Source of the DNA: Saccharospirillum sp.
GTDB lineage: Bacteria; Pseudomonadota; Gammaproteobacteria; Pseudomonadales; Natronospirillaceae
Length of the DNA: 64,000 nucleotides
Direction: 5' to 3'
Assembly: GCA_018402545.1 (NCBI GenBank)
Contig: JAGYIL010000003.1
Span: 186,001-250,000 of the forward strand
Shown here: one piece after another, positions 44,726 to 54,023 of the stretch
Layout: each line of letters begins with the position of its first letter
How positions within the stretch are numbered: the stretch's first letter is position 1
Position numbers and translations under genes: made by a program
The notes under the pieces: model-generated
Told to the model about the DNA's origin: nothing
Seen by the model: the letters and a program-made list of their open reading frames with translations, nothing else
Databases searched by the model: none

Positions 44726-45244
44726 TTACCCCTCGCAATAAAACTCATAGAACCGCTTCAATTCACGAGGGCTACGCAGGTGATGTATTGAAACTCCGCT
44801 CTCCTGCCGGGCCAGTAACGAGCGTAAATAAGGGCGGGTCGTGCGGTGAATATGCCAAATAATCCTGAGCATGGGGATCAGTTTTGCCAGCGGCTGACAA
44901 CCCTCTGCCCAACCGGCTGGTGTCACAAACGCCGATTTCACACCGCGTTTGATGGCCCACCAAAAATGCACGGCGATTGGAAAATCGAGGTAAACAATGG
45001 CATCGGAGCGCGCAAACCGGTCGGCTATGGTTGAGTCATAGCCAACCCCCTCGATGATCCAGGATTCCCCGGCCACCAGGTCATCATGCGCTTGCTGAAA
45101 CGCCTCTTCAGAAACCGCCTGCCAATCGGGCTGCCAGATCACCTGGTCCAGATGATGGACGGGCAGGCCAGTGCGCCTGCCAAGCGCCAGAGCCAGGGTC
45201 GACTTCCCGGCACCGCCATTTCCGATGATGGTGACTTTATTCAT
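44726..45244 (-). CDS. P-loop kinase-like protein (FlaR/adenylate-kinase-like)
   Basis: 172 aa from the ATG giving MNKVTIIGNGGAGKSTLALA with a Walker A motif. HHLDQVIWQPDWQAVSEEAF and SWIIEGVGYDSTIADRFARS are typical of the small nucleotide-kinase-like group often called topology modulation or FlaR-like proteins. The LID region is short. The substrate is unknown. It lies downstream of orn on the same strand, separated by 93 bp. Confidence 0.8.
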   Translation of the reverse strand: MNKVTIIGNGGAGKSTLALALGRRTGLPVHHLDQVIWQPDWQAVSEEAFQQAHDDLVAGESWIIEGVGYDSTIADRFARSDAIVYLDFPIAVHFWWAIKRGVKSAFVTPAGWAEGCQPLAKLIPMLRIIWHIHRTTRPYLRSLLARQESGVSIHHLRSPRELKRFYEFYCEG

Positions 45245-45337
45245 AACGCCTTGTATCCATTCCCTGCCCGTAACTGACCCTGAAGGGCAGACATGGGGCC
45301 CGGACCACATATAAACAACAGGCGTTGTTTGGACCGG

Positions 45338-45883
45338 TCAGTCCAACCGAATGAAATGCTCACGGTAGTGCTTCAATTCACCGATGGACTCCAGAATATC
45401 ATCCAGTGCACGGTGGCTACCCTTCTTCTGAAAGCCATCCAACACCTCGGGGCGCCAGCGGCGGGCCAGTTCTTTCAGAGTGGAGACATCGATATTACGG
45501 TAGTGGCAGAACGCATCGAGATGCGGCATGTAACGCACCAGAAACCGCCGGTCCTGCCAGATTGAGTTGCCGCACAGCGGCGACGCACCCGGCTCCACCC
45601 ACTCTTTCAAGAACGCCAGCGTTTCCGCCTCGGCATCGGCATCCGACAATTTGCTGTCTTTCACCCGCTGCGTCAGACCGGATTCGCCGTGGTGCGTGGT
45701 GCACCACTCGTCCATAGCATCGAGCGCTTCATCGCTCTGGTGAACCACCAGGTTCGGGCCTTCGGCGATGACATTCAGGTCTTTATCGGTCACCACGGTA
45801 GCGATCTCGATAATGCGGTCGGTATCCGGGTTCAGACCGGTCATTTCCAGGTCAACCCAGATCAGGTTCGATTTTTTATCCAT
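45338..45883 (-). CDS. orn: Oligoribonuclease
   Basis: 3'-5' exonuclease of the DEDDh group that clears dinucleotides, including pGpG from cyclic di-GMP breakdown. 181 aa (E. coli 181). [20 protein letters not shown] carries the first Asp-x-Glu pair, [19 protein letters not shown] the second Asp, and [20 protein letters not shown] the final His and Asp. It is divergent from rsgA, as in E. coli and most gammaproteobacteria. Two cyclic di-GMP genes lie within 7 kb, so its pGpG-clearing role is relevant here. Confidence 0.98.
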
Positions 45884-45978
45884 CTCAAATAGCCTTTTGT
45901 GCCCCCCGGGAGGGGTTTAGGGAGTAGAATGTGGCTAAAGTGTAACTTAACTGAAAGCTCTGCGTTTGCTAAGAGCTA

Positions 45979-46091
45979 GCGCCGGGTGCCAGGGGTGCTC
46001 CTGCAGGGGTATCTGAGGCATGGATGCCGAAGCTAAGCCTACATGGATGTATTCACGGCGCCCCTGCAGGAGTATCCCTGGCACCCGGTGC
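45979..46091. repeat. Intergenic inverted-repeat element 7
   Basis: The arms 45979-46009 and 46061-46091 pair at 28 of 31 positions. The core reads TATCTGAGGCATGGATGCCG, then ACATGGATGTATTCACGGCG, and so holds two CATGGATG hairpins. It lies between divergent orn and rsgA, so it cannot be a terminator for either gene. Its right flank (GGGTTCAAGCCGATAAAGAC) resembles that of element 4. Confidence 0.85.
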
Positions 46092-46159
46092 GGGTTCAAG
46101 CCGATAAAGACTATTTGAACTCCACATCTTGATTAACCACAGAGAAGCACCGTCGATTT

Positions 46160-47179
46160 ATGAGTAAACGCAAGCTGACCCGTCAGCAACAGCACCGAAT
46201 ACAAAAAGTTCAGGACGAACGACTGGCTCGTGCCCAGAAAAAGGCCGACAAAATCGAATCCCAACTGGAAGGCGGTGAACTGGGCGAAGCGCGGCGCGGG
46301 CTCATAATCGCGCACTACGGTATAACCACTGAGGTGGAGGCCGAAGATGGCACCACAGTACGCTGCCATAAGCGTAGCAACCTGCCCCCTCTGGTGACCG
46401 GCGACCAGGTCATCTGGCAGCCAGACCCGCAGGAGGGCGGCGTGATCGTCGCCACCGAAGAACGACGCACCCTGCTCAGCCGGCCCGATTCACGCGGCCA
46501 GCTGCGGCCGGTAGCGTCCAACATCGACCGGATCATCATCGTCGCCGCCCCCACGCCGCGTACTCCGGCCAACCTGATCGACCGCTACCTGGTCGCCGCC
46601 GCCCACGATGAGATTCACCCCATTATCCTGCTGAACAAATCCGACCAGATCGATCAGGCGCCAGACATGGTGCGGGAAATGGAAGAATACCGGGAACTCG
46701 GCTACGAGACCCACGCCGTCTCAGCCCAGACCGAAGAAGGCATGCAGGCCATTCGCGCCCTGGTGGCTGAAGGCAACTCAGTCTTCGTAGGTCAGTCCGG
46801 TGTGGGCAAATCGTCCATCATCGCCGCCCTGCTGCCCGATGAAGTAATTCGCGTGGGTGCCATTTCCGAAGCCACCGGCAAGGGCAAGCACACCACCACA
46901 ACGGCGGCGCTGTACCACATTCCCGGCGCAGGCAACCTGATCGACAGCCCCGGCATTCGAGAATTCGGACTCTGGCACGTTGAAACCGACAGCCTGTTCC
47001 AGGGCTTTCCGGAGCTCGACGATGCGGCCGGGCGATGCAAATTCCGTGACTGCGCGCACGAAACCGAACCAGGTTGCGCAGTACGGGCCGCGGTGGAATC
47101 CGGTAAACTGCTACCCAGACGCTACCACAGCTTTCTGTCGATACGGGACTCACTGAACGAAGTATCGATGCGAAAATAA
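46160..47179 (+). CDS. rsgA: Small-ribosomal-subunit GTPase RsgA
   Basis: Circularly permuted GTPase that checks late 30S maturation. 339 aa (E. coli 350). An N-terminal basic extension (KRKLTRQQQHRIQKVQDERL) leads to an OB fold, then the permuted G motifs: NKSD as LLNKSDQID, GxxGVGKSS as VFVGQSGVGKSSIIAAL, DxxG as IDSPGIREFGL. The zinc-binding end is CKFRDCAHETEPGCAV. The ATG gives the family N-terminus, although the ribosome binding site is weak. Confidence 0.97.
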   Translation: MSKRKLTRQQQHRIQKVQDERLARAQKKADKIESQLEGGELGEARRGLIIAHYGITTEVEAEDGTTVRCHKRSNLPPLVTGDQVIWQPDPQEGGVIVATEERRTLLSRPDSRGQLRPVASNIDRIIIVAAPTPRTPANLIDRYLVAAAHDEIHPIILLNKSDQIDQAPDMVREMEEYRELGYETHAVSAQTEEGMQAIRALVAEGNSVFVGQSGVGKSSIIAALLPDEVIRVGAISEATGKGKHTTTTAALYHIPGAGNLIDSPGIREFGLWHVETDSLFQGFPELDDAAGRCKFRDCAHETEPGCAVRAAVESGKLLPRRYHSFLSIRDSLNEVSMRK

Positions 47180-47207
47180 CCATCGTTTGCCAAGCGGGGA
47201 GCCAACC

Positions 47208-47708
47208 ATGACCGAGCGCAGTGATACCGGCGTAATTCGCCTCAGCAGCCTGGACGACTTCATAGAACACAGTGTCGAGCTGATCAACCAGACCGGACGA
47301 GAACTGACCGTACTGAGCACCGACCTCGACCGCGACTGGCTGGGCAGCGACGCCATCACCGATGCGCTGCGTCAATTTGCCATCCGCAACCGGCGCAGCA
47401 AGGTTCGTATTCTGGTAACTGAAACCAGCCCGATCGTGCAAGGCCGTCATGCCTGGCTCGACCTGATCAAACGGCTATCGCGCATTGAGATTCGGGTCAT
47501 AAAACCCGAGATTCTCGACACCGAACCGATGAAAGGCACCTTTTTGCTCAGCGACAGAAGTGGCCTGGTGTACCGGAATTCCGAGACCGGCTATGAGGGC
47601 TTTACCCACTACGACGACCGGGCCACGGTCCGCCAGCAGCTCGAGGTGTTCGAGCAGTACTGGCGTTACAGCCAGGAGTCTCCCGAATTCCGACACCTGG
47701 CTTTGTAA
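47208..47708 (+). CDS. Uncharacterised protein, phospholipase-D-like fold likely
   Basis: 166 aa from the ATG after GGGGAG, 28 bp behind rsgA and probably cotranscribed with it. The pattern of helices and strands (LSSLDDFIEHSVELINQTGR, LTVLSTDLDRDWL, KVRILVTETSP, FLLSDRSGLVYRNSETGYEG) resembles half of a PLD-type domain, but no HxKxxxxD catalytic motif is present. Family members of this kind often sit near rsgA or orn in gammaproteobacteria. Function is unknown. Confidence 0.6.
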   Translation: MTERSDTGVIRLSSLDDFIEHSVELINQTGRELTVLSTDLDRDWLGSDAITDALRQFAIRNRRSKVRILVTETSPIVQGRHAWLDLIKRLSRIEIRVIKPEILDTEPMKGTFLLSDRSGLVYRNSETGYEGFTHYDDRATVRQQLEVFEQYWRYSQESPEFRHLAL

Positions 47709-47841
47709 AACAGGTTCGGCGGTCATATCTGTGAAGCAACATCGCCCTGGCGCATTCCAGGCCCTACGGTGGCTGTCGCCCTCAAATCCGCTAAACTGCC
47801 GGTATGCCCTCTAATGAAGTGCTGAGCGAATGGAGCAGACC

Positions 47842-49560
47842 ATGAACATCGCCCGTATACCGGGTTCATTCGACTTGATGCCCTCTGGCTACCTGGTCAC
47901 CGACAATGAACGCTCCATACTGTATGCCAACCGCTACGCCTTAACTCATTTGGGCTATGACGACCTGAGCGGTACTCCGCTGTTCGACATCTTCACACTG
48001 GCATCCTGCATTCTGTTTGAAAGCTATATTGCACCGTTGCTTCTCAAAGAAGGGGCGTGCGATGAAATTCAGCTGACGCTAAAAGCCATTGATGGCAGCA
48101 AGCGTTCTGTGGTCACCAATATTCGCCGGGATGAAGCAGACAACAACCGGGTGCACTGGACCTTCATCAACGCCTCACAGCGCGACAAACTATTCCAGGA
48201 GTTGATCGATGCCCGCAACCTGCTCGAAGAAAAAACCCGGTTTCTTGAAGCGCGAACCGTCACTGATGATGTGACCGGTCTGCCCAACCGCTTATCGGTG
48301 ACCCAGTACTTAACCGAACGCATGAGCAACCCCGCACTGGTGCAAAGCCAGTTTGTAGTACTGTTTATTGACCTCGACGGCTTTAAGTCGATCAACGACA
48401 CCTACGGCCATGAGATAGGCGACCAGTTTCTCAAAGCCGTTGGCCAGAGGCTCGCCCGAAGTTTACGCGCAACGGACCTGGTGGCTCGTTATGGCGGTGA
48501 TGAGTACGTAGTTTTGCTTCAGCAAACCGACAATGAAGCGAAAACCAACACCCTGATGATTCAGCGCATCGTCAACCAGTTAAACACGCCCTTTCAGATC
48601 AACGGCCAATCCCTGTCGGTTTCGGCCAGCGCCGGCGCCACCCGCTACCCGCAACGGGATAGTGTTGAGCCCGAGCAACTGATTCGACAGGCTGACCAGG
48701 CCATGTACGAAGCCAAACTGGCGGGAAAGAACCAGATTCGCTGGTTCGACCCCGATTGGGAAAACTCCCAGAGAACTCAACACGAACTGACCGCCCAGAT
48801 TCGACAGGGCATAGAACTCAACCAGTTTTTGCTGCATTACCAGCCGAAAATAAACCTTAAGTCAGGCACCGTCATCGGGCTGGAAGCGCTGATTCGCTGG
48901 CAACACCCCAATCGGGGCTTGCTGATGCCAGGCGACTTTCTAATGCACATTGAGAACCAGCAAATCGAACTGGAACTGGGCGACTGGGTTATCGACACGG
49001 CACTAAAGCAAGCCACCCAATGGCACCAGTGTGGGTTACCGCTGCCAGTCAGCGTGAACGTTTCCGGTTTTCAATTAATGGACCCGCAATTTCTGGAACG
49101 GCTCACGGCACTCCTGTATCGCTACCCTGACCTGCCCCGGCAGCATTTTGAACTTGAACTGCTCGAAACCTGCGCAATTGATGACAGCATGAACATCGCC
49201 AACGTCATCGCCTCATGCCGACGCATGGGTTTACTGGTGTCTCTGGACGACTTTGGCACCGGCTATTCGACGCTGTCTCACCTCAAAGACCTGTCCGTCG
49301 ATATACTCAAGATCGACAGGAGCTTCGTGCAGGATATGTTAACCAACCCGAGTAACATTGCCATCATCAAAGGCATTATTGGCTTTGCCAAAGCCTTCGA
49401 TTGCAAAGCCATCGCCGAGGGGATTGAAAGCGCCGATCAGCAAGCGGCCTTACTTCAACTGGGCTGCCAGACCGGCCAGGGGTACCACATCGCCAGGCCC
49501 ATGCCCGGAGAATCGATCGAACCCTGGCTGACGGGCAGGCCTACCCCGACGAAACCCTAA
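47842..49560 (+). CDS. PAS-GGDEF-EAL cyclic di-GMP enzyme
   Basis: 572 aa from the ATG preceded by GGAG; an ATG four codons upstream is also possible. The N-terminal PAS domain (about 8-115: PGSFDLMPSGYLVTDNERSI; ESYIAPLLLKEGACDEIQLT) resembles the PAS of RsbP. A coiled linker (ELIDARNLLEEKTRFLEART) leads to the GGDEF domain with GGDEY at 218-222 and an intact RxxD inhibitory site (RATD), then an EAL domain with EAL at 348-350, DDFGTGYST and KAIAEGIESADQQ. Both cyclase and phosphodiesterase residues look complete. No transmembrane segment. The RsbQ-like gene follows after 32 bp. Confidence 0.93.
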   Translation: MNIARIPGSFDLMPSGYLVTDNERSILYANRYALTHLGYDDLSGTPLFDIFTLASCILFESYIAPLLLKEGACDEIQLTLKAIDGSKRSVVTNIRRDEADNNRVHWTFINASQRDKLFQELIDARNLLEEKTRFLEARTVTDDVTGLPNRLSVTQYLTERMSNPALVQSQFVVLFIDLDGFKSINDTYGHEIGDQFLKAVGQRLARSLRATDLVARYGGDEYVVLLQQTDNEAKTNTLMIQRIVNQLNTPFQINGQSLSVSASAGATRYPQRDSVEPEQLIRQADQAMYEAKLAGKNQIRWFDPDWENSQRTQHELTAQIRQGIELNQFLLHYQPKINLKSGTVIGLEALIRWQHPNRGLLMPGDFLMHIENQQIELELGDWVIDTALKQATQWHQCGLPLPVSVNVSGFQLMDPQFLERLTALLYRYPDLPRQHFELELLETCAIDDSMNIANVIASCRRMGLLVSLDDFGTGYSTLSHLKDLSVDILKIDRSFVQDMLTNPSNIAIIKGIIGFAKAFDCKAIAEGIESADQQAALLQLGCQTGQGYHIARPMPGESIEPWLTGRPTPTKP

Positions 49561-49592
49561 AAAACTCGCTCTGGCCGGATCAGGAAGTACAA

Positions 49593-50402
49593 ATGGACGA
49601 TGTTTTCATCAGACAACGCAACAACGTTAAAGTCTTCGGAAATGGTGAACGGGTATTGATGTTTGCACACGGTTTCGGGTGCGACCAGACCATGTGGCGC
49701 TTTGTGACCGACACGATGCAGCGCGATTACCGCATCGTCACTTTCGACTATGTCGGCTCTGGTGAATCAGACTTGTCGGCGTTCAATTCAACCCGCTACG
49801 CCACGCTGGAAGGCTACGCCGACGATATTACCGATATTCTGGAAGCCCTGAACCTTACCGGTGTCACCCTGATCGGGCATTCGGTCAGCTCCGTCATTGG
49901 CATGCTGGCGGCCATCAAGGCGCCAGAGCGTGTCAGCCAGCTCGTCATGGTATGCCCGTCGCCCTATTACCTGAATGACCCGCCAGACTACGAAGGTGGC
50001 TTTGAACGGGATGATCTGGAAGAACTCATCGACTTGATGGACAAAAACTACATAGGCTGGGCCAACTACCTGGCGCCCCTGGTGATGGGTGGCCGCGCCG
50101 GTCCCCAGTTCGTTCACGAGCTCTCCGGCAGTTTTTGCTCCACCGACCCGCTGGTGGCCAAAACCTTTGCCAAAGCCACCTTTTTTTCAGACTATCGGAG
50201 TGTATTGCCGAATTGCACAATCCCGACTCTGGTACTGCAAAGCCGGATCGATTCTCTGGCGTCGGTAAAGGTAGGCCAATACGTCACCGACCACCTGCCC
50301 AACGGCCAACTCAAAATACTGGATACCGAAGGCCATTGCATTCATATGACAGACCACAACCAGGTCGAAACGGAAATACGGGCCTTTGCCTCGGCCCGTT
50401 AA
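49593..50402 (+). CDS. RsbQ/KAI2-like alpha/beta hydrolase
   Basis: 269 aa, the length of Bacillus RsbQ (269). The triad is Ser97 (GHSVSS), Asp220 (LQSRIDSLA) and His248 (EGHCIHM), each one residue from RsbQ Ser96/Asp219/His247. AHGFGCDQTMWRFVTDTMQRD and TFDYVGSGESDLSAFNSTRY are strongly RsbQ/D14/KAI2-like. In Bacillus RsbQ hydrolyses an unknown small molecule needed by the PAS-phosphatase RsbP in energy-stress signalling. Here the partner is a PAS-GGDEF-EAL protein 32 bp upstream, so the product may control cyclic di-GMP. No signal peptide. Confidence 0.9.
   Translation: MDDVFIRQRNNVKVFGNGERVLMFAHGFGCDQTMWRFVTDTMQRDYRIVTFDYVGSGESDLSAFNSTRYATLEGYADDITDILEALNLTGVTLIGHSVSSVIGMLAAIKAPERVSQLVMVCPSPYYLNDPPDYEGGFERDDLEELIDLMDKNYIGWANYLAPLVMGGRAGPQFVHELSGSFCSTDPLVAKTFAKATFFSDYRSVLPNCTIPTLVLQSRIDSLASVKVGQYVTDHLPNGQLKILDTEGHCIHMTDHNQVETEIRAFASAR
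50378..50399. terminator. Hairpin at the end of the RsbQ-like gene
   Basis: ACGGGCC and GGCCCGT pair across 8 nt inside the last codons, just before the stop. It lies between convergent genes and might stop transcription weakly in both directions. No U-run. Confidence 0.35.
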
Positions 50403-50417
50403 ATCCTGCAAACCGCT

Positions 50418-52100
50418 TTAGTTAGCCGCCTCACGGCTCACCCGGTTTGAATAGCGCACCGGGTTTTCCAGCTGCCAGACAGACTCCTGTTCTGGCAATG
50501 GCATCACAAAGCGTTTCAACTGCGGTGTCGCCCGGCACATATCCGGCTGGGTTCGCACCACTTCCACTTCATCGCCCTTCACTCTAAGCAGCAAGTGGTT
50601 CTCTTGCGTGCAACCATTCGACATCACCGAGAACTCGAGGCCCTCTTCGGTAATGGCCGGGTTAAACACCACCTCCGGGGGCTCGGACGCAAAGGGGTTG
50701 GAAGAGCAGGCCGCCAGGCCCAGTGTTGAAAGCAGAACCAGGGCCAAAGGGCCTTTTCGGGTTCTACGAAACACTACCAGAGGCGCTGCAAGCAACAGCC
50801 ACCAGGAAGAGAAGGCGCCGCCTCCGCCTGAGAAGCGAGTTGAAGTAGAAGTGGGTTTCACGACCACGGCATCAAACTTAAGCTCATAGGTTTTATCATT
50901 GATATCAAAAAACACGTCACCTTTATAAGTACCAGCAGCATTGAAAACAGCATTAAAGCTGACACTGCAGCTTTGGCCATTCTCAAGGGCAGACCCACAT
51001 AGATTCGAGGCTACAGAAAATCCAGCGGGCAAATCGTTGTAGTTAAAAGGGGACAAATCTATTCGTGAACCAGAGTTATTGGTTATCGACCAGCCAACCG
51101 TCCTGTTCATCGAATTTTCGGACCGGCCAAAACTAACATTCCAGTCAAAATCTATTGATTCGAGCCAATAGGCTTTTACATTGTCAATCCAGTACATCAA
51201 ACCATAAACATCGGCATATACACCGTATGTTTCCGCACAAGACAGCCCAAAACTCACTATCCCGTACTGAATAAAATCGGAGCCATTATTCTGAAACAAT
51301 GGTCCACCGCTATCTCCCTGGCACGAATCTTTTCTAGCCCCCACATTATCTACGCCATTTACATAGCCAGCACACACCATTATCTCGTCATCATAGTTGG
51401 AATATTTGCTAGAACAGGCTGAGGCAGTGACGGCGGGGATATCTAGTTTTAATAGATCTCTTGAGGCTTTGAAAGTATTTGTGCTGTAAGTTGTATCACC
51501 TAATCCTATTACAGTTACATCATCTCCAGAAAATGAGAGATTCGGATAGTTATTAATTTGCGGCAACGTCACCGCTTCTACGACACCAGGGCCTGGTATT
51601 TCAGCCAGTCGAATAAGCGCGATATCATTGGCAAAGGTGCCCGGATCGTATTTCTTGTGAAATAAAATTTCACGACCCTGGTCAGAAACATTTATGTCGT
51701 ATAATTCATCATTAAATTCTGGGAAAAGGGCTGTATATACTTCATCAGAAATAGGGGCAGTTTCCGACACGGAACATTGACTTGTATCACATGTTTCATA
51801 CCCCATCTTGTTTCCAGGGTCGCCAAGCCAAATTTTATATTCAAAATCTCCAAGGCAGTGAGCAGCTGTCAATACCAGCCCGTCTCCTATGTAACTGGCC
51901 CCACAAGCGGGCTCCCAAAGAAACTCATTATCTCCGTCACCCCATTCGTATTTGACCATCAATATCGCAAAGAAATCCCCCTCTGCCCCTGTAGCAGGTG
52001 TTCCACCAATAATCCTAGGCTGAATTTCCTCCGCCCAGGCCATGCTCCCAGCCCCAATCAATACCAGCCAGACTAAGACCGCTTTCACACCGCTACGCAC
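50418..52100 (-). CDS. Trypsin-like protease with GlyGly-CTERM fused to a lipoprotein
   Basis: 560 aa from a GTG after AGGG; later Sec signal VKAVLVWLVLIGAGSMAWA. The S1 protease domain (RIIGGTPATG) has His81 (LTAAHC), Asp159 (NDIALI), Ser264 (DSCQGDSGGP) and Asp258 for trypsin-like specificity. A beta-sandwich follows (about 330-420). SGGGGAFSSWWLLLAAPLVV then FRRTRK is a GlyGly-CTERM tail, the substrate of rhombosortase. Such proteins normally end there, but this frame continues into LALVLLSTLGLAACSS, a lipobox with Cys465, and a further 95 residues. The protease part is markedly A+T-rich (17 G/C in the 60 bases 51661-51720); the lipoprotein part matches the host. A fusion of an acquired gene with a resident one is likely. 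Confidence 0.85.
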   Translation of the reverse strand: MRSGVKAVLVWLVLIGAGSMAWAEEIQPRIIGGTPATGAEGDFFAILMVKYEWGDGDNEFLWEPACGASYIGDGLVLTAAHCLGDFEYKIWLGDPGNKMGYETCDTSQCSVSETAPISDEVYTALFPEFNDELYDINVSDQGREILFHKKYDPGTFANDIALIRLAEIPGPGVVEAVTLPQINNYPNLSFSGDDVTVIGLGDTTYSTNTFKASRDLLKLDIPAVTASACSSKYSNYDDEIMVCAGYVNGVDNVGARKDSCQGDSGGPLFQNNGSDFIQYGIVSFGLSCAETYGVYADVYGLMYWIDNVKAYWLESIDFDWNVSFGRSENSMNRTVGWSITNNSGSRIDLSPFNYNDLPAGFSVASNLCGSALENGQSCSVSFNAVFNAAGTYKGDVFFDINDKTYELKFDAVVVKPTSTSTRFSGGGGAFSSWWLLLAAPLVVFRRTRKGPLALVLLSTLGLAACSSNPFASEPPEVVFNPAITEEGLEFSVMSNGCTQENHLLLRVKGDEVEVVRTQPDMCRATPQLKRFVMPLPEQESVWQLENPVRYSNRVSREAAN

Positions 52101-52349
52101 ATCCCTACTCCCACAAGACAGTCCGCTTAGAATAATCCAATCCAGACTATCCAGCCATGCCAATACTCCTAAAAAGCGAACCGGTCGGCAGGAAACAGAC
52201 GCCTTGCATTCACCGCTGCCCCCCGGACAGATCTTTCCACCCACTTGGGTTAGCCAGTCTGCTTCCGGCGGGCTATCATTCTACCAATGGTACGTTTGTT
52301 GTTCGTGCCACTAAGGTTCACTTTACCAGCAAAGGGACGGCACATCGTC

Positions 52350-53285
52350 ATGAAGCCCGATAATGCCTCTACGTCACTCGCCGCTCTGATCCCCACCCTC
52401 AAGCAGTTGTTTGAAGGCAGTGGCACCATGGTGTACCTCTACGATGAGGCAGATACCCTGGTTTACGCCAACGCCAACTTCTATGAACGGACCGCCCTGC
52501 CCGCTGGCTCGCTCCCGCACTGGCGCGACCTGATGCGGGAAAATCACCGTTCGAACAAGGGCTTGCTGATCGAAACGGACGACATCGAAGACTGGCTGGC
52601 CAACGCCGAGCAACGGCGCAGAAGCGTTCCCTACCGCCAGTTTGAGATCGATACCGTCGATGGCCACTGGATTCTGATGTCGGAAACGGTGATCCCGAAT
52701 GTGGGTATTCTGGGTGTGGGCGTCGACATCACCCGGGCCAAGCACACCACCACCCTCCTCCAACACGAGTATCAGCAGGCCCTGGTAGAAGCCGAAACCG
52801 ATGCGCTGACCCGAATGGGTAACCGGCGGGCGCTCGACCGACTGCGGCGTTTGCTCACACTGAATGGTCAAAACCGGGTAATTTCTGCACTGATGATCGA
52901 TATCGACTGGTTCAAGCCCTACAACGATAGCCTGGGCCATTTGCAGGGCGATGAGTGCCTGCGCACCATTGCCGACGTTATTCGATCCGGTTTTCGTTCT
53001 GAAGAGGCCTATCCGCTGCGTATTGGTGGTGAGGAGTTCCTGATTCTGATGGTCGATGCCGACCTGCAGTCCGCCAGCCAGGTCGCCCGGCGCATTCTGC
53101 GCGACATTCGTGGCCGGGCCATCCCCCACCCGGCCACCGAGGTCGGCCATGTCACCCTGAGCATTGGGGTGGCATCGGGCACGGTGACCGATGATGACAG
53201 CATCTCAACCCTGCTGGATGAAGCCGATAAGGCCCTGTATCAGTCGAAACACGCCGGCAGAGACCAGGTGACCCTGGCCTCATGA
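52350..53285 (+). CDS. PAS-GGDEF diguanylate cyclase
   Basis: 311 aa. The N-terminal PAS-like domain (about 10-130: MVYLYDEADTLVYANANFYE; GHWILMSETVIPNVGILGVG) precedes a short coiled linker and a GGDEF domain with TRMGNRRALDRLRRLL, MIDIDWFKPYNDSLGHLQGD and GGEEF (226-230). The inhibitory site is degenerate, RSEE in place of RxxD, so product inhibition may be weak. No transmembrane segment. The ATG is chosen as the start of PAS homology; the ribosome binding site is poor. It converges on the racemase gene with only 4 bp between stops. Confidence 0.9.
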   Translation: MKPDNASTSLAALIPTLKQLFEGSGTMVYLYDEADTLVYANANFYERTALPAGSLPHWRDLMRENHRSNKGLLIETDDIEDWLANAEQRRRSVPYRQFEIDTVDGHWILMSETVIPNVGILGVGVDITRAKHTTTLLQHEYQQALVEAETDALTRMGNRRALDRLRRLLTLNGQNRVISALMIDIDWFKPYNDSLGHLQGDECLRTIADVIRSGFRSEEAYPLRIGGEEFLILMVDADLQSASQVARRILRDIRGRAIPHPATEVGHVTLSIGVASGTVTDDDSISTLLDEADKALYQSKHAGRDQVTLAS

Positions 53286-53289
53286 GGCA

Positions 53290-53979
53290 TTAGCGGAGCG
53301 CGTACGCCACCGCCCGTGCGGCATGAATCTGCGTGGTATCGTACAGCGGCACCGGTGTGTGGGCTTGCTGGATCAGCAGGCCGATCTCGGTACAGCCGAG
53401 TATCACACCCCGGGCACCCTGCGCGGCCAGATCATCCACCACCGCCAGATACTCGGCCCGGGAACGCTCGCTGATGACGCCCTGGCACAGTTCTTCGTAG
53501 ATGATCCGGTGAATGCGGTCGCGCTGCGGTGCATTGGGTGTCAGCACCGCTATGCCTTTGGCTTCCAGCCGCTCCCGGTAAAACGCCTGCTCCATGGTAA
53601 AGCGGGTACCGAGCAGGCCTATGCGGTCGATGCCTGCATCCAGCAGCACCTGAGCGGTGGCATCGGCGATGTGCAGCAGGGGAATGCTAATGGCGGCTTC
53701 GATTTGTGGGGCGACCTTGTGCATGGTGTTGGTGCCTATCAGCAGCACCTCGGCGCCAGCTGATTCAACGGCCTGGGCAGCAGCCGACAGTATGCGCCCG
53801 GTTTCATCCCAGTTGCCCTGGTGTTGAAGGGCCTCGATCTCGGCAAAATCAACACTGTACAGCACCACTTTGGCCGAATGCAGGCCACCCAGGGCGGTTT
53901 TGACGTTTTCGTTCAACAGCCGGTAATAAGTCTGGGTCGATTCCCAGCTCATGCCGCCCAACAGTCCAATGGTTTTCAT
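53290..53979 (-). CDS. Aspartate/glutamate racemase family protein (RacX/YgeA type)
   Basis: 229 aa. The catalytic pair is asymmetric: Thr83 in IGTNTMHK where most relatives have Cys, and Cys196 in LGCTEIGLL. This Thr/Cys arrangement is that reported for E. coli YgeA (Thr83/Cys197), a broad-range or Asp/Glu racemase. The N-terminus IGLLGGMSWESTQTYYRLLN is typical. It lies at the end of a run of minus-strand genes with an SMR transporter and RidA, suggesting amino-acid handling. Confidence 0.88.
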   Translation of the reverse strand: MKTIGLLGGMSWESTQTYYRLLNENVKTALGGLHSAKVVLYSVDFAEIEALQHQGNWDETGRILSAAAQAVESAGAEVLLIGTNTMHKVAPQIEAAISIPLLHIADATAQVLLDAGIDRIGLLGTRFTMEQAFYRERLEAKGIAVLTPNAPQRDRIHRIIYEELCQGVISERSRAEYLAVVDDLAAQGARGVILGCTEIGLLIQQAHTPVPLYDTTQIHAARAVAYALR

Positions 53980-54023
53980 CCTCAGGCTCCCTTTCCTGCG
54001 TTAGTAGCGAGTTTTACAGTTGG

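Follow-up and report, generated by a model that had tools for sequence, protein, structure and literature searches.

The window analyzed here, a stretch of 64,000 nucleotides from Saccharospirillum sp. (contig JAGYIL010000003.1), contains two genes on the same strand, one for a PAS-GGDEF-EAL protein and, 3' of it after a gap of 32 bp, one for an RsbQ-like alpha/beta hydrolase. Both had been called in that order by a sequence-only reading of this DNA, and both were recovered here by ORF, Pfam, and PDB phmmer analysis; their features are listed in Table 1 together with those of relatives discussed below. The open reading frame of the first gene stands as previously described, except that the start given for it, 47842, is the second in-frame ATG; the first is 47830, and translation may begin at either. 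A consensus scan of positions 47600–50600 found no terminator-like site on the + strand and no more promoter-like sites than in shuffled sequence, and no Rfam element matched at gathering score within 45000–54000.

Table 1. Coordinates of features in the window and in related loci. Residue numbers refer to the respective proteins.
Feature	Source	Coordinates	Strand	Basis
PAS-GGDEF-EAL protein, 576 aa	Window	47830-49560	+	ORF; Pfam GGDEF, EAL, PAS_8; alternative start 47842
RsbP-class PAS domain, about residues 13-118	Window	47866-48183	+	AlphaFold2 PAS model, pLDDT 94.3; alignment with 72 RsbQ-adjacent PAS domains; class residues
Helical linker from PAS to GGDEF, about residues 119-143	Window	48184-48258	+	Constant length; helix in low-confidence model
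GGDEF domain, residues 144-302	Window	48259-48735	+	Pfam 7e-52; motif GGDEY, RxxD five residues before
EAL domain, residues 323-557	Window	48796-49500	+	Pfam 1e-69; motifs intact
RsbQ-like alpha/beta hydrolase, 269 aa	Window	49593-50402	+	PDB phmmer 3qvm/1wom; Pfam Abhydrolase_1; 13-row alignment
Ser97 codon, triad nucleophile	Window	49881-49883	+	Invariant in 13 homologues; aligned with 1wom
Asp220 codon, triad	Window	50250-50252	+	Invariant in 13 homologues
His248 codon, triad	Window	50334-50336	+	Invariant in 13 homologues
RsbQ-PAS single chain	L126	3986-5182	+	Vreelandella family
RsbQ-PAS single chain	L127	3638-4807	-	Vreelandella family
RsbQ-PAS single chain	L128	3986-5161	+	Vreelandella family
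RsbQ-PAS-GGDEF single chain, 582 aa	L194	3392-5137	-	Genome G1080
PAS-class protein with class III nucleotide cyclase domain PF00211, upstream of RsbQ	L065	3868-4926	+	Planktothrix

The best PDB matches of the hydrolase are Olei00960 (3qvm, phmmer 5e-108) and then Bacillus subtilis RsbQ (1wom, 2e-86). Its predicted catalytic triad is the same in all 13 homologues aligned, which bears out the earlier description of an RsbQ-like enzyme with Ser97, Asp220, and His248. The plant KAI2/D14 receptors have the fold, the triad, and recognizable sequence similarity in common with it but fall behind RsbQ, at 1e-58 and weaker, and membership of the hydrolase in that group was rejected on this comparison. 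The D14/KAI2-type ligand pathway that had been proposed for the pair accordingly reduces to a relationship of fold. In plants, KAI2 and D14 act with the partners MAX2/D3 and SMXL; the partners found here are instead PAS proteins.

The PAS domain is the most N-terminal domain of its protein according to both Pfam and AlphaFold2. The PAS_8 match is weak although above its cut-off (6e-6, 26.5 bits vs. 21.8), while the 130 residues from 47842, modeled from a 73-row alignment of the window domain and 72 others, form a PAS fold with a mean pLDDT of 94.3. Foldseek neighbors of this model in the PDB include heme, flavin (NifL), and LOV PAS domains. Profile A3 was built from 72 of 74 listed neighbors (L046 and L070 omitted), and the list behind it had already excluded L001–L013 and four further loci. 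Another profile, A2, includes six of the eight PAS-class domains that it detected in the order (all but those of genomes G161 and G029). Searched against the PDB, it gave nine weak PAS matches, among them DosP (2e-6), PAS kinase, FixL, and WalK, and none that carries the name RsbP.

With RsbP positions assigned by way of L086, the window domain has common letters at class positions L13, L48 (F), C56 (F), Y59, and E72, and P62 is kept. Four of the nine class positions (10, 53, 55, and 86) are unusual compared to the published module described below (S for C10, C for Q53, L for F55, S for P86). As in that module, there is no DIT motif at the end of the domain, where the window sequence reads NASQRDK. 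Position 55 is F in 60 of the 72 other domains, L in the window, and M or I in five relatives that share its gene order. The surface contacted by RsbQ may therefore have shifted in the window protein and in these inverted relatives.

The linker between PAS and GGDEF does not change in length among 12 proteins. A helix at residues 115–140 in the full-length AlphaFold2 model is a weak hint, as that model was made from 6 rows and has a mean pLDDT of 72.3, with the PAS part largely below 50. We compared the output domains of 12 GGDEF-EAL proteins (the window, L132, L133, L015, L022, L023, L025, L029, and L119–L122). The EAL motifs, judged at positions that we take to be catalytic, are intact in all 12; GGDEF is intact in 11, the exception being L029 (GADEF), and RxxD is present in eight. 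Because EAL is the better preserved, hydrolysis of c-di-GMP rather than its synthesis is probably the output that has been conserved, with a GGDEF domain that is probably active or regulatory. Among NCBIfam families, the best full-length matches, all below cut-offs, are phosphodiesterases. The GGDEF-EAL part resembles PdeR/Gmr (PRK10060) and DibA (374 and 367 bits), yet the window protein falls far below the curated cut-offs of 782 and 980 and differs from both in having an RsbP-type PAS domain and an RsbQ partner. The opposite output, c-di-GMP synthesis with the EAL domain secondary, would fit the intact GGDEY and RxxD of the window protein and the 36 of 87 pairs that have GGDEF without EAL (from 13 whole-genome loci and the best 80 of at least 591 named relatives); set against the intact EAL motifs, the lapses in GGDEF and RxxD, and the phosphodiesterase matches, we consider it unlikely, if still deserving of some weight.

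To see how often RsbQ and the RsbP-class PAS domain go together, we surveyed genomes at several taxonomic levels. Of 194 genomes from the order, 10 have RsbQ at E<=1e-40 and eight have the PAS class (E<=1e-15); all eight are among the 10 (Fisher test, about 1e-12). At E<=1e-50, three of 369 genomes in a sample of the class matched RsbQ, including the window's own, as did 20 of 398 in a sample of the phylum; in all 19 regions taken from 17 phylum-sample genomes, the PAS class is adjacent or fused to RsbQ. A plasmid collection had an RsbQ relative at E<=1e-40 in 71 of 72,556 records.

For neighborhoods, 93 RsbQ loci were assembled from 13 whole-genome loci and the best 80 of at least 591 confirmed relatives among 596 stretches in a scan of named genomes, so that the set is biased to close relatives. 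An RsbP-class PAS gene adjoins RsbQ at 87 of these 93 loci. The sequence-only reading had staked the pairing on a conserved neighborhood in relatives, and such a neighborhood is present with this bias toward the best 80 of at least 591; yet the pair is sporadic close to home, with RsbQ in one of four genomes of the genus (the window's own) and in none of four from the rest of the family. Sorted by output, the 87 pairs from this set of best matches comprise 36 GGDEF, 34 histidine kinase, 9 GGDEF-EAL, 3 phosphatase, and 5 unrecognized. These labels, like those for the Vreelandella family, the fusions, and the phylum-sample regions, come from profiles seeded on our own sequences; Pfam was run on 24 proteins, some of which are not neighbors. 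Chance adjacency of the two genes is ruled out by the 87 of 93 loci (13 whole-genome plus the best 80 of at least 591) and by the order-wide co-occurrence.

Distances between RsbQ proteins and between their PAS domains are correlated (Spearman coefficient 0.77 for 73 loci; the highest value under permutation was 0.13), and organism history contributes to this co-divergence. Conservation is far stronger in the hydrolase (mean distance 0.46) than in the PAS domain (0.71).

Six of the 93 loci (again including the best 80 of at least 591) have no PAS neighbor: L002, L010, L011, L013, L092, and L033, the last of which is cut off by the end of its contig. Searches at E<=1e-8 detected no PAS-class protein in genomes G044, G065, and G252 or in the one that holds L092; the genomes of L002 and L010 are among those with this negative result. 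The RsbQ closest to that of the window (74% identical) is L002, of genome G044, yet it is an orphan. Either orphans have lost their partner or RsbQ has another use. A search of the flanks of L123, L153, L157, L164, and L169 likewise found no partner there. As a separate observation, L010 and L092 have a similar membrane-protein gene directly upstream of RsbQ. Four of the orphans (L002, L010, L011, and L092) are what could be said for a reading in which the genes are merely co-transcribed and RsbQ is a metabolic hydrolase with no link to signaling. We regard this as very improbable given the co-occurrence, the distance correlation, the fusions described below, and the fact that RsbQ adjoins PAS genes with unrelated outputs.

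The PAS gene lies upstream of RsbQ in eight of the 87 pairs (including the best 80 of at least 591), and seven of the eight are GGDEF-EAL: the window, L003, L015 (Marinobacter MAG), L022, L023, L025, and L029 (Halomonas/Vreelandella). The eighth, L065 from Planktothrix, has no GGDEF-EAL. RsbQ at E<=1e-70 is present in 34 of the 275 genomes from the GTDB family to which Vreelandella populi belongs. Thirty loci from this family include 20 with GGDEF-EAL upstream, 2 with PAS-GGDEF downstream, 3 fusions, and 5 without a PAS-class partner within 1.5 kb; for the 20 inverted loci, the 1.5 kb flanks showed GGDEF-EAL and not PAS, and full genes were available for seven (L119–L122, L023, L025, and L029). 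Downstream GGDEF-EAL partners also occur (L004, L089, and L209).

In a tree of the 93 RsbQ rows, the window RsbQ clades with L002 and L003 (support 100/100). A second tree left out 24 of these rows and added 17, and its bootstrap had not settled. Unconstrained, it needs three changes for the inverted GGDEF-EAL pairs. Constraining 11 inverted rows plus L002 to a single origin is not rejected (p-AU 0.106), nor is the constraint when L004 is added (0.131), and one origin is thus neither shown nor rejected.

L137, from the same genus, and L138, from the same family, have homologues of the genes that flank the pair (rsgA, DUF7931, and trypsin-like) but lack the pair. The shared flanking genes are separated there by 184 bp and 8 bp, respectively, vs. 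2,709 bp holding the pair in the window. Most simply, the window's line gained the two genes; the lines of L137 and L138 may instead have lost them.

The flanks themselves have features worth recording. The DUF7931 protein (2e-37; 47187–47708, +) is encoded directly 3' of the rsgA-like gene, an adjacency kept in both L137 and L138. On the other side of the pair, one ORF of 608 aa (50418–52244, -) joins a trypsin-like protease to a C-terminal part that is lipoprotein-like; in L138 the two match separate, slightly overlapping ORFs. A second PAS-type/GGDEF protein is encoded at 52287–53285 (+), 1.9 kb from the RsbQ gene, with PAS_7 below its cut-off and GGDEF at 4e-38 (Pfam).

In some relatives, the two partners are a single protein. 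Three genomes of the Vreelandella family encode RsbQ-PAS chains of 390–399 aa with no output domain, in each case 60–69 nt 3' of a gene for a NorR-type sigma-54 activator (NF003451 at 593, 629, and 600 bits for L126, L127, and L128; cut-off 476). Between L126 and L127, dN/dS is 0.12 for the RsbQ part and 0.09 for the PAS part, indicating that the two parts are both maintained. In the second tree, the three chains group together (100/99), and their position next to Bacillota RsbQ has moderate support (84/83). Genome G1080 encodes an RsbQ-PAS-GGDEF chain in addition to an ordinary separate pair (L193). A match to this chain occurs in seven of 13 genomes of the genus and is uninterrupted in one; Pfam at 0.001 did not report PAS in it.

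RsbQ with an RsbP-type PAS domain has been described as a bipartite sensing module, based on 45 pairs, namely B. subtilis RsbQ/RsbP and 44 others (Nadezhdin, Brody, and Price, 2011; PMC3183031). Its outputs are a phosphatase, a histidine kinase, or a diguanylate cyclase, and three of the cyclases carry EAL. The window pair likewise combines the RsbQ triad, an adjacent N-terminal PAS domain of RsbP type, and a c-di-GMP output; its GGDEF-EAL arrangement is that of the three published pairs, and unlike B. subtilis RsbP its output is not a phosphatase. In all 45 pairs RsbQ is immediately upstream, as this was the search rule, whereas the window has the PAS gene upstream and falls outside it. The rule defined what the survey looked for and places no demand on how the module works. 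A coiled-coil linker was noted in 36 of the 45 and is missing from the EAL-bearing proteins (PMC3183031). The link between RsbQ and a c-di-GMP enzyme that the sequence-only reading had put forward is upheld at the level of genome anatomy and conserved far beyond this genome, but as a connection it was already published in 2011 (PMC3183031). The 2011 survey has since been cited for kinases and cyclases (eLife, 2025; PMC12143880). A Halomonas cyclase in a 2025 mBio paper was considered and set aside, since it belongs to a different system in which DgcY goes with a LysR regulator.

The window pair is genuine and conserved, and pairs of its kind have been published. Its inverted gene order extends that kind modestly; of more interest, as a by-product, are the relatives in which the partners are fused or linked to NorR. 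Three forms are new relative to the literature searched: the RsbQ-PAS chain beside a NorR-type activator, the RsbQ-PAS-GGDEF chain, and the class III cyclase output. The available text of the 2011 paper lists neither fusions nor a NorR link nor a class III cyclase output (PMC3183031), and we found no later study of the c-di-GMP branch or of RsbQ-PAS fusion in the open-license literature searched.

Our best explanation, which we hold with moderate confidence, is that the two genes encode a cytoplasmic bipartite sensor in which RsbQ contacts the PAS domain and switches c-di-GMP turnover, more probably breakdown. RsbQ would bind, and probably hydrolyze, a small molecule and would touch the PAS-GGDEF-EAL protein, itself a dimer, at its PAS domain. 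Contact near the F-alpha helix of PAS and the linker, dependent on the ligand, would alter the dimer, and the altered dimer would switch turnover toward breakdown more probably than synthesis. Adjacency, co-occurrence, co-divergence, intact motifs, and fused relatives are the observations on which this builds. Direct contact with PAS and a need for the triad would carry over from published work on B. subtilis; ligand gating by RsbQ, the direction of the c-di-GMP change, and the physiology we infer.

In B. subtilis, the PAS domain is necessary and sufficient for interaction with RsbQ in the two-hybrid system, F55A breaks this interaction, and pull-down data also support it, while purified RsbQ and RsbP yielded no complex unless cell extract was present (PMC3183031). 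An AlphaFold2 model of 2RsbP/2RsbQ places RsbQ at the interface of PAS domains and linkers (PMC12143880). Together with the fused chains, these data favor direct contact. The same study has the partner RsbT act on the N-terminal domain and linker of RsbU to alter the effector dimer, and proposes the same for RsbQ/RsbP (PMC12143880); in the window, the partner is a hydrolase and the effector GGDEF-EAL. Several points speak against our explanation. Four of the nine class positions of the window PAS domain are unusual, among them F55, whose change broke RsbQ binding in RsbP and which is L in the window; at least four genomes have RsbQ but no PAS-class protein; the co-divergence partly mirrors organism history; and product delivery could also work within a fused chain.

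Control by a small molecule made by RsbQ, as envisaged in the sequence-only reading, is one of the two models offered in 2011, the other being the hydrolase as the sensor (PMC3183031); it is unproven, and published and fusion data point to contact. In this first model, RsbQ acts as an enzyme, and what it makes serves the PAS pocket as ligand or cofactor, delivered by contact or by diffusion. The triad is required for B. subtilis signaling (PMC3183031) and invariant in the 13 homologues, and our PAS model has the fold of ligand- or cofactor-binding PAS domains. A diffusing product, however, needs neither a fused chain nor near-constant adjacency, a ligand was not found with RsbP-PAS (PMC3183031), and the hydrolase is far more strongly conserved than the PAS domain. 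We consider product delivery fairly unlikely. A freely diffusing product was dropped as the default reading in view of the fused chains and near-constant adjacency, and the fusions favor direct contact over it.

The sensed cue was called mysterious in 2011 (PMC3183031), and the available text of the 2025 paper names none for RsbQ (PMC12143880). Tentatively, and with less confidence than in the two-gene sensor, we suggest that RsbQ may itself be a receptor, as KAI2/D14 are in plants. Ligand-loaded RsbQ and PAS would then make up one receptor unit, split or fused and on either side of the output gene, with at least six outputs: phosphatase, histidine kinase, diguanylate cyclase, cyclase-phosphodiesterase, class III nucleotide cyclase, and NorR-type sigma-54 activator, the last driven in trans by a free-standing RsbQ-PAS chain. 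The c-di-GMP output offers an easy readout for RsbQ sensing. In the natural RsbQ-PAS and RsbQ-PAS-GGDEF chains the stoichiometry is set by the protein itself; they could get around the binding problem met in 2011, and as single chains they open the interface and the ligand to structural work and cyclase assay.
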